Assembly (NCBI RefSeq): GCF_900215505.1
Contig: NZ_LT907844.1
Coordinates: forward strand, 3,116,001-3,180,000
Length of the DNA stretch: 64,000 bases
Source: Cohaesibacter sp. ES.047
GTDB lineage: Bacteria; Pseudomonadota; Alphaproteobacteria; Rhizobiales; Cohaesibacteraceae
Direction: 5' to 3'
The notes under the pieces are model-generated. The model had not been told where the DNA came from, did not search any database, and saw nothing but the letters and a program-made list of their open reading frames with translations. Position 1 is the first letter of the stretch; each line of letters opens with the position of its first letter. This document shows positions 26,302-32,369 of the stretch, piece after piece. The translations under genes were made by a program, and so were the position numbers.

Positions 26302-26548
26302 CTATGTCTCTTCTGGGCAGAGGCAAGTCAACCATTTGGAGACTTTGTTTATGCAATCTCTCTAATACTACTCCTTTCTGTTGTAACCCCATGGCGAATG
26401 ACTTAACCTTCGGTTGCAAGAGCCTGCTTTGTCTCACCCTGTTTAGCGTTCAAGTGGTCGGTGCGTGAGACACAAATAGTCACTTCAATAGCTGAGATCA
26501 TCCATTACAATCGGTTGTGCTCAGGCACTGAACCGGGGGAGGTTGCAT

Positions 26549-27250
26549 GTGGAATCGCAAACAGCGGTAAAGTATCTGGCGATCAAAGAGCTCATTTTAG
26601 AACGGATCAAACAGAAGCAATGGCCTCCGGGGTCGCTGCTGCCAACCGAAATCCAGCTTGCGGAGGAATTCGGCTGTGCCAGAGCGACGGTCAACCGGGC
26701 ACTGGCACAGCTCGCTGAGGATGGCATCATTGACCGTCGGCGCAAGGCAGGCAGCCGGGTAAATTCCCTGCCGCAGCGAAGTGTGCGCGTCAATATTGTT
26801 TGTGCTATGCGGGAAATTGAGGCGAAAGGCACCGATTATCGCTATCAGCAGCTAAGACGAAGCTTTGGACTGGCGCCCGAGTGGCTCTGCGATCTAGTCG
26901 ATCTGCCAAAAGACATAGAGATGCTGTATCTGCAAAGCCTGCACTTTGCGGATGACCAACCATTCCAGTTTCAGGAAGCCTGGCTGAATGCGACGGACTA
27001 TCCGGAAGTTGTTGATATGGATTTCATCAAGCAGGACCCCTTCAACTGGGTGCTGCGGGAAATGCCGTTTCTTGACACGACGCTCTACCTGAAAGCACAG
27101 GCCGCGCACAAGCATGTCGCAAAGTGTCTGGATATCGCAACTGGTGACCCTGTGCTCTTTAGAAGCTATCATGGATCGTGGTCGTCCAAGACGGTCTGCT
27201 TTTTCCGCAGGATCTACCGCAGCGATTATGAAATGATTTCGCAAGGGTGA
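26549..27250 (+). CDS. GntR-family (HutC/UTRA) transcriptional regulator
   Basis: About 233 residues from a GTG at 26549, which has a GGGGGAGG ribosome site 6 nt upstream; a TTG at 26543 is an alternative. The N-terminal GntR winged helix (about 12-75) contains PGSLLPTEIQLAEEFGCAR and the conserved RATVNRALAQLAEDGII region, and the C-terminal domain (about 90-230) is a UTRA ligand-binding fold. HutC-type members often sense histidine-pathway or sugar metabolites. No catabolic operon is directly attached and the regulated genes are not obvious. Confidence 0.87.
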   Translation: MESQTAVKYLAIKELILERIKQKQWPPGSLLPTEIQLAEEFGCARATVNRALAQLAEDGIIDRRRKAGSRVNSLPQRSVRVNIVCAMREIEAKGTDYRYQQLRRSFGLAPEWLCDLVDLPKDIEMLYLQSLHFADDQPFQFQEAWLNATDYPEVVDMDFIKQDPFNWVLREMPFLDTTLYLKAQAAHKHVAKCLDIATGDPVLFRSYHGSWSSKTVCFFRRIYRSDYEMISQG

Positions 27251-27275
27251 GGAATAGCCCTGCGGCGTTTCGATC

Positions 27276-27545
27276 TTAGGCGCTCATGGCGAGGGGATGC
27301 CGGTCTGCGCTCCACGCGTCGTCGATCACATGCTCGATGGCTGGCATCAGTTCGTCCCAACCAAAGGGAACGGCACCGGTCCGGACACGGTCTGCTCCGA
27401 TGCTGTAGGCCAGCAGGGTATTGTCGAGATTGGGGTGCGCCGCAGAATAGTGATCTGTGCAGTCGCAATATGGAATGGCTTCAGCTTCCAATGCAATGGC
27501 GCGGGCTGCCTTGCTGCATTCCGCGCGTCTGTCGTATCCAACCAT
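27276..27545 (-). CDS. Hypothetical protein, 89 residues
   Basis: The ATG at 27545 has a good AGGAGA ribosome site 6 nt upstream, supporting a real gene. The protein is soluble, mildly acidic, and has three cysteines (C10 and a CDC pair near residue 28) followed by DHYSAAHPN, which could bind a metal. I do not recognise the family. It is convergent with the GntR gene and lies beside a perfect palindrome about 77 bp upstream of its start. Confidence 0.6.
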   Translation of the reverse strand: MVGYDRRAECSKAARAIALEAEAIPYCDCTDHYSAAHPNLDNTLLAYSIGADRVRTGAVPFGWDELMPAIEHVIDDAWSADRHPLAMSA

Positions 27546-27621
27546 TTGTTTCTCCTACTTATGTATAGGTAAATAGCGGATTGTGAGCGGGTGTGCATCT
27601 ATAAATTTAGCAGGCAAACTA

Positions 27622-27638
27622 ATTTTGCACTGCAAAAT
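27622..27638. promoter_or_regulatory. Palindrome upstream of the 89-residue protein gene, candidate operator
   Basis: Perfect 8-bp arms ATTTTGCA and TGCAAAAT flank a single central base. A further TGCAAAAT half site occurs at 27663-27670. Size, symmetry and position upstream of the 27545 start suggest a repressor site. Which regulator would bind is unknown; the GntR gene next door is one candidate. Confidence 0.45.
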
Positions 27639-27710
27639 AAACTGAGGTTAACAACGCTGCGGTGCAAAATCCAAAGGCGTGCATGCAAAGGCGTGGCGAG
27701 GAGGGTATGG

Positions 27711-28075
27711 CCTCAGCATTCGGGCAGGTTCACGGCAAGCCCGCCACAAGATAGGCCGCCGTTGGTCGCAACGGTGCAAAGCCTATCGCCAGAAAAGAAG
27801 CGCGGCGGGCTTATTCCGAAGCTCAGCATTCGGGGAGATTGACCGCAAGCCCGCCACAAGATAGGCCGCCGTTGGATCCAGCGGCGCAAAGCCTATCGCC
27901 AGAAAAGAAGCGAGGCGGGCTAATTTCGTAGCTCAACACTCGGGCAGGTTCACGGCAAGCCCGCCACAAGATAGGCCGCCGTTGGATCCAGCGGCGCAAA
28001 GCCTATCGCCAGAAAAGAAGCGAGGCGGGCTAATTTCGTAGCTCAACACTCGGGGAGATTGACCGCAAGCCCGCC
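27711..28075. repeat. 110-bp tandem array: three full units plus the sdaA 3' end
   Basis: Units begin at 27711, 27821 and 27931, with the matching end of sdaA at 28041-28075. The period is exactly 110 bp with no indels. Offsets 3-35 of each unit are the minus-strand last ten codons and stop of sdaA. All differences between copies in these codons are synonymous: GCG/GCC, GTC/GTG, AAT/AAC, CTC/CTG, GAG/GAA and TGT/TGC. Offsets 29-100 of each unit form a nested hairpin: outer stem GCCCGCC/GGCGGGC, middle stem ATAGGC/GCCTAT, and an 8-bp inner stem with a 4-nt loop. Identity to sdaA ends abruptly after codon GGC. The left flank (before 27711) shows no further homology. Confidence 0.95.
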
Positions 28076-29458
28076 GAGCGACGTCTCTTTGTATTTCTCG
28101 CCCATATCCTGGCCGGTCTGCCACATGGTCTCGATGCAATTGTCGAGCGGCATGAAGTGGGTGCCATCGCCATGAAGGGAGAGGGACGCCGCTGACACCG
28201 CCTTGATGGCCCCAAGGCCGTTGCGCTCAATGCAAGGCACCTGAACCAGCCCCTTCACCGGATCGCAAGTCATGCCCAGATGATGCTCCAGCGCGATTTC
28301 AGCTGCATTCTCGATCTGCTCGTTGCTGCCGCCAAGGGCCGCACAGAGACCGCCAGCAGCCATTGCCGCCGCAGAGCCAACTTCGGCCTGACAACCTGCT
28401 TCTGCGCCCGAAATGGAGGCGTTGTGCTTGATCAGCCCGCCAATGGCTGCCGCCGTCAGCAAAAAGGTGCGGATGCCTTCATCGCTCGAACCGGGGCATT
28501 GATCGCGGTAATAGCGCAGTACGGACGGTATGACGCCAGCCGCGCCGTTGGTCGGCGCGGTGACAACGCGCCCACCCGCAGCATTTTCCTCATTCACCGC
28601 CATGGCATAGAGGCTCAGCCAGTCATTGACCTGATGCGGCATAGGCTGATTGTTGCCCCGATCGGCAATCAGCCGCTCGCGGATGGCTTTTGCGCGGCGT
28701 TTGACATAGAGGCCTCCCGGCAATTCGCCATCCTTCTCAAGCCCTCTATCGATCACTGCCCGCATCGTGTGCCACAGGCGATCAAGGCCTGTCAGCAAAG
28801 CCTCCCGGTCGAGCTCCACTTCCTCGTTTGCCTGCTTCATCGCCGCGATGCTGAGCCCGGAGCGCTGTCCCATGTCGAGCATCTCTGCTGCAGAACCGAA
28901 GGGATAGGGATAACCCGCCGCCTTCTGCTCCTTGTGTAGATCCATGGGGTCATGGCTGATCTGTTCATCCAGCTCGCTGGCGGTGACGATGAAGCCACCG
29001 CCGATGGAATAATAGGTGGCGCTGGCGAGCTGCTGGTTGCCCTCGCCATAAGCAAAGATCTTCATGCCGTTGGCATGGCCGGACAGGGGCGGGCCATAGT
29101 CAAAGACGAGATCCTCGTCAGGGTTGAAGCGCAGGCGCTCAAAGCCATCCGGCTCAATGTGTTTTTCTTCGCGGATGCGCGCTTCCAGCCCTTCGGCTTC
29201 GTCCGGATCGAGCTTGTCTGGCGTGATGCCGATCAGCCCGAGGATCACGGCCCGGTCCGTCGCGTGCCCCTTGCCGGTGAAGGCCAGCGAGCCATGCAGC
29301 GAGCAGGAGACACGTCGCACCTGCTCAGCGCTGACGCCCATGAAGACACCGCCGCGCAGGTCATCCATGAACCGCGCCGCCGCATTCATCGGCCCCATCG
29401 TGTGGGACGAGGAGGGGCCAACCCCGATCTTGAAGATGTCAAAGACGGAAAGGAACAT
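28043..29458 (-). CDS. sdaA: L-serine ammonia-lyase, single-chain iron-sulfur type
   Basis: 471 residues, the normal size for the single-chain enzyme with beta and alpha domains fused. The N-terminus [20 protein letters not shown] is the family signature, and the C-terminal domain carries the cysteines of the 4Fe-4S cluster, including GCQAEVG and the [16 protein letters not shown] region. It converts L-serine to pyruvate and ammonia. It lies 43 bp downstream of gcvP in the same direction, so glycine and serine breakdown are probably co-expressed. Its last ten codons are the site where the 110-bp repeat array begins. Confidence 0.95.
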
Positions 29459-29501
29459 GGGTATGCCTCAGATCGGGGTCGTAGAGTTCAGATTGGACGG
29501 C

Positions 29502-32369
29502 CTATTCAGCTGCCTCTTCGTAGGCATCCACCGGTGGGCAGGTGCAGATGAGATTGCGGTCGCCATAGGCATTGTCGACGCGGTTGACTGGCGGCCAATA
29601 TTTGTCCACCTCGAAAGCGCCCGCCGGGAAACATCCCTGCTTGCGGCTGTAGGGACGGTCCCATTCGCCAACCAGATCGCGCACCGTATGAGGCGCATTT
29701 TTCAGCGGGTTGTTGTCCTTGTCAATCTTGCCGTCTTCAATGTCCTGCGCTTCGCGACGAATGTCGAGCATCGAGGCGATGAAACGATCAAGCTCGGCCT
29801 TGGGTTCGGACTCGGTCGGCTCGACCATCAGGGTGCCCGCCACCGGCCAGCTCATGGTCGGCGCGTGGAAGCCATTGTCCATCAGGCGCTTGGCGATGTC
29901 ATCCACGGTCACATGGCAGGCCTCATCGAGGGGGCGGGTGTCGAGAATGCACTCATGCGCTACACGGCCCGTCTTGGAGGTGTAGAGGATGTCAAAGGCA
30001 TCCTTGAGGCTTTCGGCGATGTAGTTGGCATTGAGGATCGCCACCTTGGTGGATTGGGTGAGGCCAGCGCCACCCATCAACAGGCAATAGGCCCAGCTCA
30101 CCGGCAGGATCGAAGGAGAGCCGAAGGGCGCCGCCGAAACCGGTCCGATGGTCGCGTCCCGTTCCGGATGGCCGGGAAGATAAGGAGCAAGATGGGATTT
30201 GACGCCAATTGGCCCCATGCCCGGTCCGCCACCGCCATGGGGGATGCAGAAGGTCTTGTGCAAGTTGAGATGGCTGACGTCGCCGCCGATGTCACCGGGC
30301 CGGGACAGCCCCACCATGGCGTTCATGTTGGCACCATCGATATAGACCTGCCCACCATGCTCGTGGGTGATGGCACAAACCTCCTGCACCGTCTCCTCGA
30401 ACACCCCGTGGGTGGAGGGATAGGTGATCATGCAGGCGGCGAGTTGATCGGAATATTGCTCCGCCTTGGCCCGGAAATCCTCAAGATCGATGTCGCCATT
30501 GTCTGCCGACTTGACTGGCACCACCTTCCAGCCGGCCAAATGGGCCGAGGCAGGGTTGGTGCCATGGGCCGAGGTCGGAATGAGGCAAATGTTGCGGTGG
30601 CCCTGACCCTGAGCCTGCTGATAGTTGCGGATGGTGATGAGGCCCGCATATTCCCCTTGCGCGCCGGAGTTGGGCTGCTGAGAGATGGCGTCATAACCGG
30701 TGACAAGGCAGAGCTTGTGATTGAGATCGTCAATCATCTCCTTGTAGCCAAGCGCCTGATCGTCGGGCACGAAGGGGTGCAGGTTGGCAAATTCGGGCCA
30801 TGTCACCGGGATCATCTCGATGGTCGCATTGAGCTTCATCGTGCAGGAACCGAGCGGGATCATCGCCCGGTCAAGCGCGAGATCGCGGTCGGCGAGGCGG
30901 CGCATGTAGCGGGTGATCTCGGCCTCGGCGCGGTTGAGATGAAAAATCGGGTGGGTGAGATAATCGCTTTCGCGCAGGTTGGCCTGTGGCAAGCGATAGG
31001 CGATGTCTTCCTCGCGGGCATATTCGTCCGCACCATAGTCAAGATCGCCGCCAAAACTCTTCCAGACCGCTTCCACGACTTCCGGCCGTGTCTGTTCATC
31101 AAGGCTGATGCCGATCTTGCTGGACCCCACCTTGCGCAGGTTGATGCCGTTGGCAACCGCGGCGTTCATGATGACGCCTTGAAGCGCGCCCACTTCGACC
31201 GTGATGGTGTCAAAGAAGACATCCGGTTCGACCTTGAAGCCTAGTTTCTCAAGGCCATCTGCGAGGCGGACGGTGCGGCGGTGAACATATTGCGCGATGG
31301 CCTTGATGCCGTCCGGTCCGTGGTAGACCGCATACATCGAGGCAATGACGGCCAGCAGGGCCTGTGCGGTGCAGACGTTGGAATTGGCTTTTTCGCGGCG
31401 GATATGCTGCTCGCGGGTCTGAAGCGCGAGGCGATAGGCCTTGCGGCCCTGACTGTCGATGGTCACGCCAATGATGCGGCCCGGCATGGAGCGCTTGTAG
31501 GCGTCGCGACAAGCCATATAGGCGGCATGTGGTCCGCCATAGCCGAGCGGCACGCCAAAGCGCTGGGTGGAGCCGACGGCGATGTCCGCGCCCATCTCGC
31601 CCGGTGCCTTGAGCAGCGCCAGAGACAGCGGGTCGGCGATGACGATGCCAAGGGCCTTATTCTCATGCAGGCTCGCGATGAGGTCTGAGAAATCGCGCAC
31701 ATGACCATGGGTGCCGGGATACTGGAAGATGGCCCCGAATACTTCGCTGGGGTCGAGATCTTCCGGTGCGCCGATCTTGACCTCGATGCCAAGTGGCTCT
31801 GCCCGTGTCTCGATCACGGCGATATTCTGCGGATGGCAATTCTCGTCGACAAAGAAGACATTGGCCTTGGTCTTGGAGGCGCGTTTGGCCATGGTCATGG
31901 CTTCGGCGGCTGCCGTTGCTTCGTCTAGGAGTGAGGCGTTGGCGACCTCCAGACCGGTCAAGTCCGACACCATGGTCTGGAAATTGAGCAAGGCTTCAAG
32001 CCGACCCTGACTGATTTCGGGCTGGTAGGGAGTGTAGGCCGTATACCAAGCCGGATTTTCAAGGATGTTTCTCAGGATCACCGGCGGCGTGGTGGTGCCA
32101 TAATAGCCCTGACCAATCAGCGAGGTGAGAAGCTTGTTCTTGGAGGCGACCTGCCGCATGTGGTGCAGGGTGTCTTTTTCCGTCAGTGCACCGCCCCATT
32201 CCAGCGGCTCTTTTTGACGGATCGAAGGAGGAACGGTGGCATCGATGAGCGCATCCAGCGTTTCGAACCCGACGACCTTCAGCATCTCTGCCATTTCCGA
32301 CGGGCTCGGGCCGATGTGGCGCCGGTTGGCAAAATCATAGGCTTCGTAGTCGGTCAGTTGGAATGCCAT
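29502..32369 (-). CDS. gcvP: Glycine dehydrogenase (decarboxylating), P-protein of the glycine cleavage system
   Basis: 955 residues, the full-length fused P-protein. The PLP-binding lysine lies in [20 protein letters not shown] near residue 700 in the C-terminal half; the N-terminal half contains the related but inactive fold. It decarboxylates glycine and passes the aminomethyl group to lipoyl-GcvH. gcvT and gcvH are not in the window, which is unusual because they are often adjacent. The gene is divergent from an XRE-cupin regulator across a 204-bp intergenic region. Confidence 0.96.

Follow-up and report, generated by a model that had tools for sequence, protein, structure and literature searches.

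Hairpin repeats with rebuilt gene ends behind sdaA and a few other genes of Cohaesibacter

The window, a 64,000-nt stretch of the Cohaesibacter sp. ES.047 genome, holds a tandem array behind the gene for L-serine ammonia-lyase, sdaA. This gene lies at 28043..29458 on the minus strand and is identified by TIGR00720 (594.5 bits, over the cut-off) and by PF03313/PF03315. Three units of 110 bp stand 3' of its stop codon. As described in an initial annotation made from the sequence, the units start at 27711, 27821 and 27931, the sdaA end at 28041 is in register with them, and there are no indels, the spacing being 110/110. The same annotation was correct in stating that each unit closes with the last ten codons of sdaA and a stop, since all three copies give the same ten residues, and that identity to sdaA has a sharp boundary at one codon, which is the GGC codon where identity begins. 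The template end is the last 33 nt of the gene (28043-28075, minus strand). Its rebuilt copies, all on the minus strand, are found at 27933..27965 (copy 1), 27823..27855 (copy 2) and 27713..27745 (copy 3, the outermost), with four, two and six synonymous differences from the gene, respectively, and no nonsynonymous difference in any of them (12 of 12 synonymous). As a chance control, the window was searched for open frames that end in a stop and have 150 codons or more (110 found, 109 testable). Among the 109, sdaA alone has a copy of its 33-nt end within 300 nt downstream, with 2 mismatches, and the next best frame has 12.

Each 110-bp unit also contains a strong hairpin, which reads GATAGGC...GCCTATC on the minus strand, together with GGCGGGC in an inverted copy. 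The inner hairpins, all on the minus strand, are at 27970..28007 in unit 1 (pattern match at contig 3143970-3144008; E 8.7e-12 with covariance model R2, described below), 27860..27897 in unit 2 (hairpin pattern and R2, E 8.7e-12) and 27750..27787 in unit 3 (hairpin pattern and R2, E 1.2e-10). In unit 1 the minus strand reads as a GATAGGC stem, a 4-nt 5' bulge, an upper stem and GCCTATC. The inverted copy, or arm, is GCCCGCC, the reverse complement of the rebuilt-end start GGCGGGC. It is seen in the minus-strand sequence at 28024..28030 in unit 1 and at 27914-27920 and 27804-27810 in units 2 and 3, and its pairing in the window comes to 8 bp with one flanking base counted. Between arm and hairpin of unit 1 is a pyrimidine-rich stretch (28008..28023, minus strand), which has the same position in the 32-sequence alignment A2. 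A terminator scan of 26500-28600, requiring a stem and then an immediate T run, returned 5 candidates against 1.9 expected; four of the five are on the minus strand inside the array, with tails such as CTATCTTGTG. A protein-coding role for the unit was rejected, since the period ranges from 104 to 114 across the genus and is not constant modulo 3.

Arrays behind sdaA are common in Cohaesibacter and vary in copy number. The gene is present in all 18 Cohaesibacter genomes searched, and 13 of them have one or more hairpin units behind its stop codon; G003, G005, G008, G015 and G017 have none. The period is 104-114 in 11 of the 13 unit-bearing genomes. G010 has a period of 196 with three hairpins in one unit, and in G002 the period is about 108 by eye and the rebuilt end is very degenerate and was missed by the script. 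Empty sites and differing copy numbers, which the initial annotation had considered for close strains, are both found when the sdaA 3' ends of relatives are compared: G003 has a clean empty site, and arrays contain from one to five rebuilt ends. In the tree, G003 groups with G002 and G009 (supports 93/85 and 91/89, on branches that the program left unstarred). Because G003 is nested inside array-bearing relatives, it has probably lost its array. Within the genus, the changes in copy number look like the outcome of local expansion and loss. The exact sdaA-end pattern occurs in 22 of 297 genomes of the order and is present in more than one copy in seven, all of them Cohaesibacter. Beyond the genus, one of 75 sdaA loci (five of which have less than 1000 nt of downstream sequence) has an end-like stretch, without an array. 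This locus, L049 from a Roseibium MAG, has the stretch 203 bp downstream of sdaA with 25 of 33 positions identical (8 mismatches), and no hairpin was seen there.

The rebuilt ends have changed mainly at synonymous positions. Across 12 genomes (G002 was excluded, its copy being too degenerate), the changes from the gene are 49 synonymous and 7 nonsynonymous in internal copies of the sdaA end, and 48 and 21 in the outermost ones, where 25% synonymous would be expected under random change. The simplest reading is that sdaA ends are exchanged between the array and the gene; recombination of this kind, as proposed below, would be the reason that the array copies stay coding-correct.

The hairpin belongs to a family that is found at other genes. 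Alignment of 30 distinct hairpin cores from sdaA gives a common stem, GATA-N-GC / GC-N'-TATC. Its 5' side carries a bulge of 4 nt, the upper stem is variable, and pair five of the lower stem is G-C in 18 cores, C-G in nine, A-T in two and T-G in one. A BLAST search of the unit against its own genome finds sdaA as the only locus. Further sites were located by a covariance model of the sdaA core (R1) together with a degenerate hairpin pattern, for which a control pattern gave 0-2 hits per genome and some of whose own hits have long unpaired loops and are chance-like. With these structural searches the family appears at two more genes of the ES.047 genome, msrA and a reductase gene, and at a further two, etfD and recQ, in relatives. 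The initial annotation had regarded a core confined to sdaA as the sign of a local tandem duplication, and the four further genes take the family beyond that case. etfD encodes ETF-ubiquinone oxidoreductase (PF05187), and msrA matches TIGR00401. The recQ protein is cut off, with RQC, HRDC and helicase domains and a best match to TIGR01389 under its cut-off. The hydroxyacid-type reductase has its best match, also under the cut-off, to 2-hydroxy-3-oxopropionate reductase (TIGR01505). A hairpin of terminator-like form, GATAAGCCCGC...GCGGGCTTATC, is seen behind the reductase array of G001 (L213, offsets 1274 (+) and 1693 (-)).

A second covariance model, R2, was built from 32 inner hairpins from all gene settings, which match it by construction. 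At E<=1e-4 it has at least 95 matches, spread over 17 of the 18 Cohaesibacter genomes; 150 of 853-1948 candidates were scored per genome, so weak copies may escape this count. By coordinates and loci read, 34 matches are at sdaA, 33 at etfD, seven at the reductase, six at msrA and one at recQ, and 14 are elsewhere, all in G010 (13 of these were read). The ES.047 genome has six matches, three at sdaA, two at msrA and one at the reductase. Apart from G010, strong R2 matches are confined to gene ends in the Cohaesibacter genomes that have them (16 genomes), and G017 has no strong R2 match. Overall the family is present at one or more of the five gene 3' ends in 17 of 18 genomes. Its stems covary, with a score of 0.428 compared to 0.113 (sd 0.017) in shuffles, and none of 500 shuffles scored as high. 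Further pair types are in weak excess (22 vs 18.9 in shuffles), and pairs changed on both sides show no excess (2 vs 2.0). G-T cells number 10 and A-C cells 6, an excess too small to name the acting strand.

R2 was also run outside Cohaesibacter. It found no match at E<=5e-4 in 384 other Alphaproteobacteria, under stricter filters than in the Cohaesibacter run and with scoring of 14 candidates in each genome. In a run with the threshold E<=0.002 on 397 genomes of the order, matches occur in 17 Cohaesibacter genomes, in seven of one second genus, and singly and more weakly in three more. The seven genomes of the second genus have 1-11 hairpin copies each, and G184 of the same genus is not among the R2 matches. 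At the printed loci these copies sit in larger palindromic repeats that by eye are like those of G010, and no gene-end copies were noticed. Larger palindromic repeats with the same hairpin near the stem tip are seen by eye at L160 and L163-L167 (G010) and at L242-L246 (second genus), and several repeats of this type in G010 and the second genus begin with a CTCTCACGGCTATT-like sequence. The hairpin also occurs alone in tandem, with a period of ~47-54 bp, at L027, L161 and L162 (G010) and at L241, L243 and L249 (second genus).

At the gene ends the units follow one plan. Read on the gene strand, the gene end with a target sequence (T) and the stop codon comes first, and 0 to about 22 nt separate it from an arm that is complementary to T. 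The arm is followed by a pyrimidine-rich stretch and the hairpin, and after a further 0-5 nt the gene is directly repeated from T onward. A script found the direct repeat of the gene end 0-5 nt past the hairpin in 34 of 40 first units (9/10 and 25/30), and the aligned repeats are 33-73 nt long at nine sites and 44-102 nt at 25. The script failed at sdaA of G002 (degenerate copy), msrA of G015 (decayed), sdaA and etfD of G010 (tandem hairpins), and etfD of G007 and G013 (clear by eye). Two distinct T sites are used at etfD, each with its own arm. The length and sequence of the direct repeat vary by gene, and there is no constant attachment core.

The arm is matched to the gene that it follows. 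Its longest Watson-Crick run to its own gene has a mean of 8.0 over 39 sites (two of the five msrA rows, G016 and G012, are misplaced in this set), compared to 4.51 for shuffled arms (sd 0.15, maximum 4.95 of 300); the value for other genes, 4.5, is at the shuffled level. For etfD type 2 of G006 and G013, the arm differs from the gene at one position, and the scored runs of 7 do not correspond to these arms. At msrA the runs to the own gene are 9 (G000), 9 (G012), 11 (G016) and 12 (G007), and runs to the genes of other species are 3-7, except that for G000 and for G012 one relative with the same target sequence also gives 9. The decayed msrA unit of G015 has a run of 3. In the sister species G012 and G007, T differs and the arms differ correspondingly. 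Species tracking is absent from the sdaA arms, which have a mean of 6.1 to their own gene and 6.2 to the sdaA of other species. The arm crosses the junction, matching gene sequence that is absent from the downstream copy, at etfD and recQ, at six of the seven reductase sites and at three of the four msrA sites that have not decayed. The second msrA unit of G012 has a perfect fold-back of its own arm in place of the hairpin, and this looks like the scar of a template switch. Template switching is reported in PMC8604942 to homogenise the arms of inverted repeats.

The plan thus recurs at five unrelated genes, with a covarying hairpin, a gene-specific arm and rebuilt gene ends. Taken together with the history proposed here, the array at sdaA probably belongs to a family of short hairpin repeats, non-coding and located behind the stop codons of a few Cohaesibacter genes. 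The initial annotation had pointed to the shape of a mobile element. An element-like origin is supported, because the hairpin and the order of gene end, hairpin and rebuilt end recur at msrA, the reductase, etfD and recQ; the version with an integrase and an attachment site gains no support. We infer that the first unit reached each gene end by an insertion or a template-switching event, in which the gene end would have been duplicated and the gene left intact. Once two gene ends were present, homologous recombination could expand, shorten or remove the array, and it could also swap ends between the array and sdaA. Quasi-palindrome template switching, selection for pairing, or the two together may keep the arm matched to the gene. 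This history makes no claim of a dedicated enzyme. The genomes examined showed neither a donor copy nor a circle, an enzyme or a fresh insertion, and all of the sites may be old, with local turnover alone since.

A more specific mechanism is conceivable, although it is put forward tentatively. The hairpin element may copy itself behind genes by base-pairing, with the arm as guide and the gene end re-copied. Upstream of the stop codon the arm would anneal to the coding strand, and synthesis from the 3' side of the hairpin would then re-copy the gene from the annealing point on, stop codon included. The junction-spanning arms behave as a guide would, because they match intact gene sequence that is missing downstream. 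If true, this would be a class of insertion in which host sequence supplies both target recognition and gene repair.

A role in the 3' UTR is an unlikely explanation of the units, but it would account for several of the observations. The unit would be a cis-acting RNA structure in which the hairpin and the pairing of arm to coding region protect, process or end the mRNA, with the array as spare copies and the pairing under selection. The covariation of the stems and the species tracking of arm-gene pairing at msrA fit such a role, as does the gene-sense orientation of the units at the gene-end sites read. Terminator-like stems, identified by eye, lie past the etfD and reductase arrays, suggesting that the units at these genes would be transcribed. 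However, the five genes have no evident common pathway, and the genus contains unit-free orthologues of msrA and sdaA, with no substitute noticed in passing. Folding z-scores at five sites are modest (-0.77 to -2.95), and the G-T excess is weak (10 vs 6). Rfam 15 also gives no match to the unit at gathering score: the three matches in window positions 26400-29600 (E 0.32-2) are all far under it, and a tRNA is the sole match that reaches it in ten hairpin loci.

It is improbable that the array is a plain minisatellite, formed when the sdaA end and adjoining intergenic DNA were duplicated once and copy number then drifted. The BLAST result in the ES.047 genome and the variable copy number across the genus are as expected from this, and deletion would explain the empty site, but the same hairpin and plan at four other genes and the gene-specific inverted arms are not. 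Purely local duplication was rejected on the basis of the hairpins at msrA, etfD, the reductase and recQ.

Least probable is an integrating element that restores the gene end through its attachment site and depends on a recombinase, Y1 transposase or reverse transcriptase acting in trans; it would fit the targeting and restoration of gene ends and the dispersed copies in G010 and the second genus, but the direct repeats of 33-102 nt have no fixed common core, the reverse-copied arm of host sequence is not predicted by att-type integration, Y1 transposases (PF01797) and RVT_1 (PF00078) are found in nine and eight of 18 genomes compared to 17 for the hairpins, none of the listed coordinates of either family is within 15 kb of a strong hairpin, and both families are missing from G001, G006 and G007, which have hairpins. 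The REP-type transposase that the initial annotation had suggested as a partner is thus not supported, nor is a reverse transcriptase, since neither family tracks the hairpins in the 18 genomes.

The hairpin family shares features with several known systems. The MIRU of mycobacteria are short tandem units at gene ends that overlap stop codons; the Cohaesibacter units are likewise short, in tandem and at gene ends, and MIRU are not known to copy the last codons of the host gene or an inverted arm of it. Integrative elements of gene 3' ends can accrete in tandem and leave their target gene with a restored end. The target gene end is restored here as well, but the unit of 110 bp has no coding capacity, being too short for an integrase, and it has long variable repeats and an inverted arm. 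REP sequences have a conserved tetranucleotide. The REP, BIME and REPIN sequences described in PMC12306157 resemble the Cohaesibacter family in being short non-coding palindromic repeats, some of them close behind stop codons. The Cohaesibacter gene-end units differ in having a host-derived inverted arm and then rebuilt C-terminal codons, and no Y1 transposase is linked to their hairpins. MITEs of the Correia/NEMIS, RUP and ERIC sort are similar in that they are <200 bp, non-autonomous, structured and mainly intergenic, and according to PMC2229807 most have terminal inverted repeats and target site duplications. In contrast, the Cohaesibacter arms vary by gene, with no terminal inverted repeats common to all copies, and the direct repeats of 33-102 nt are not a short fixed target site duplication. 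Quasi-palindrome template switching, as described in PMC8604942 and PMC7202029, homogenises the arms of inverted repeats and would keep an arm matched to its gene, but it is a mutation process and alone brings no common hairpin to five genes. No description of a gene-end hairpin family was found among the best matches of a literature search, and the pattern seems to represent a type of gene-end repeat not described before.

Short palindromic repeats are common in bacteria, and their origin and spread are poorly understood. In this family the host gene sequence stands in the repeat twice, inverted and direct, and at some genes both track the evolving gene. The five genes in 18 species provide a readable record of how a repeat is formed, spread and erased without damage to the gene. 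The roles of template switching and of base-pairing with the host gene become directly testable.

Other features are found downstream of the array in the window. A small protein of about 80-90 amino acids is encoded at 27276-27545 (minus strand) and comes after the array in several species (among L019-L026); at E 0.001 neither Pfam nor NCBIfam gives a match to the window copy. The gene is preceded by a TTTTGCAGTGCAAAA-type palindrome. A HutC/GntR-type regulator at 26543-27250 (plus strand) is convergent with it, and the inverted repeat at 27622-27670 could be a candidate operator for this regulator.
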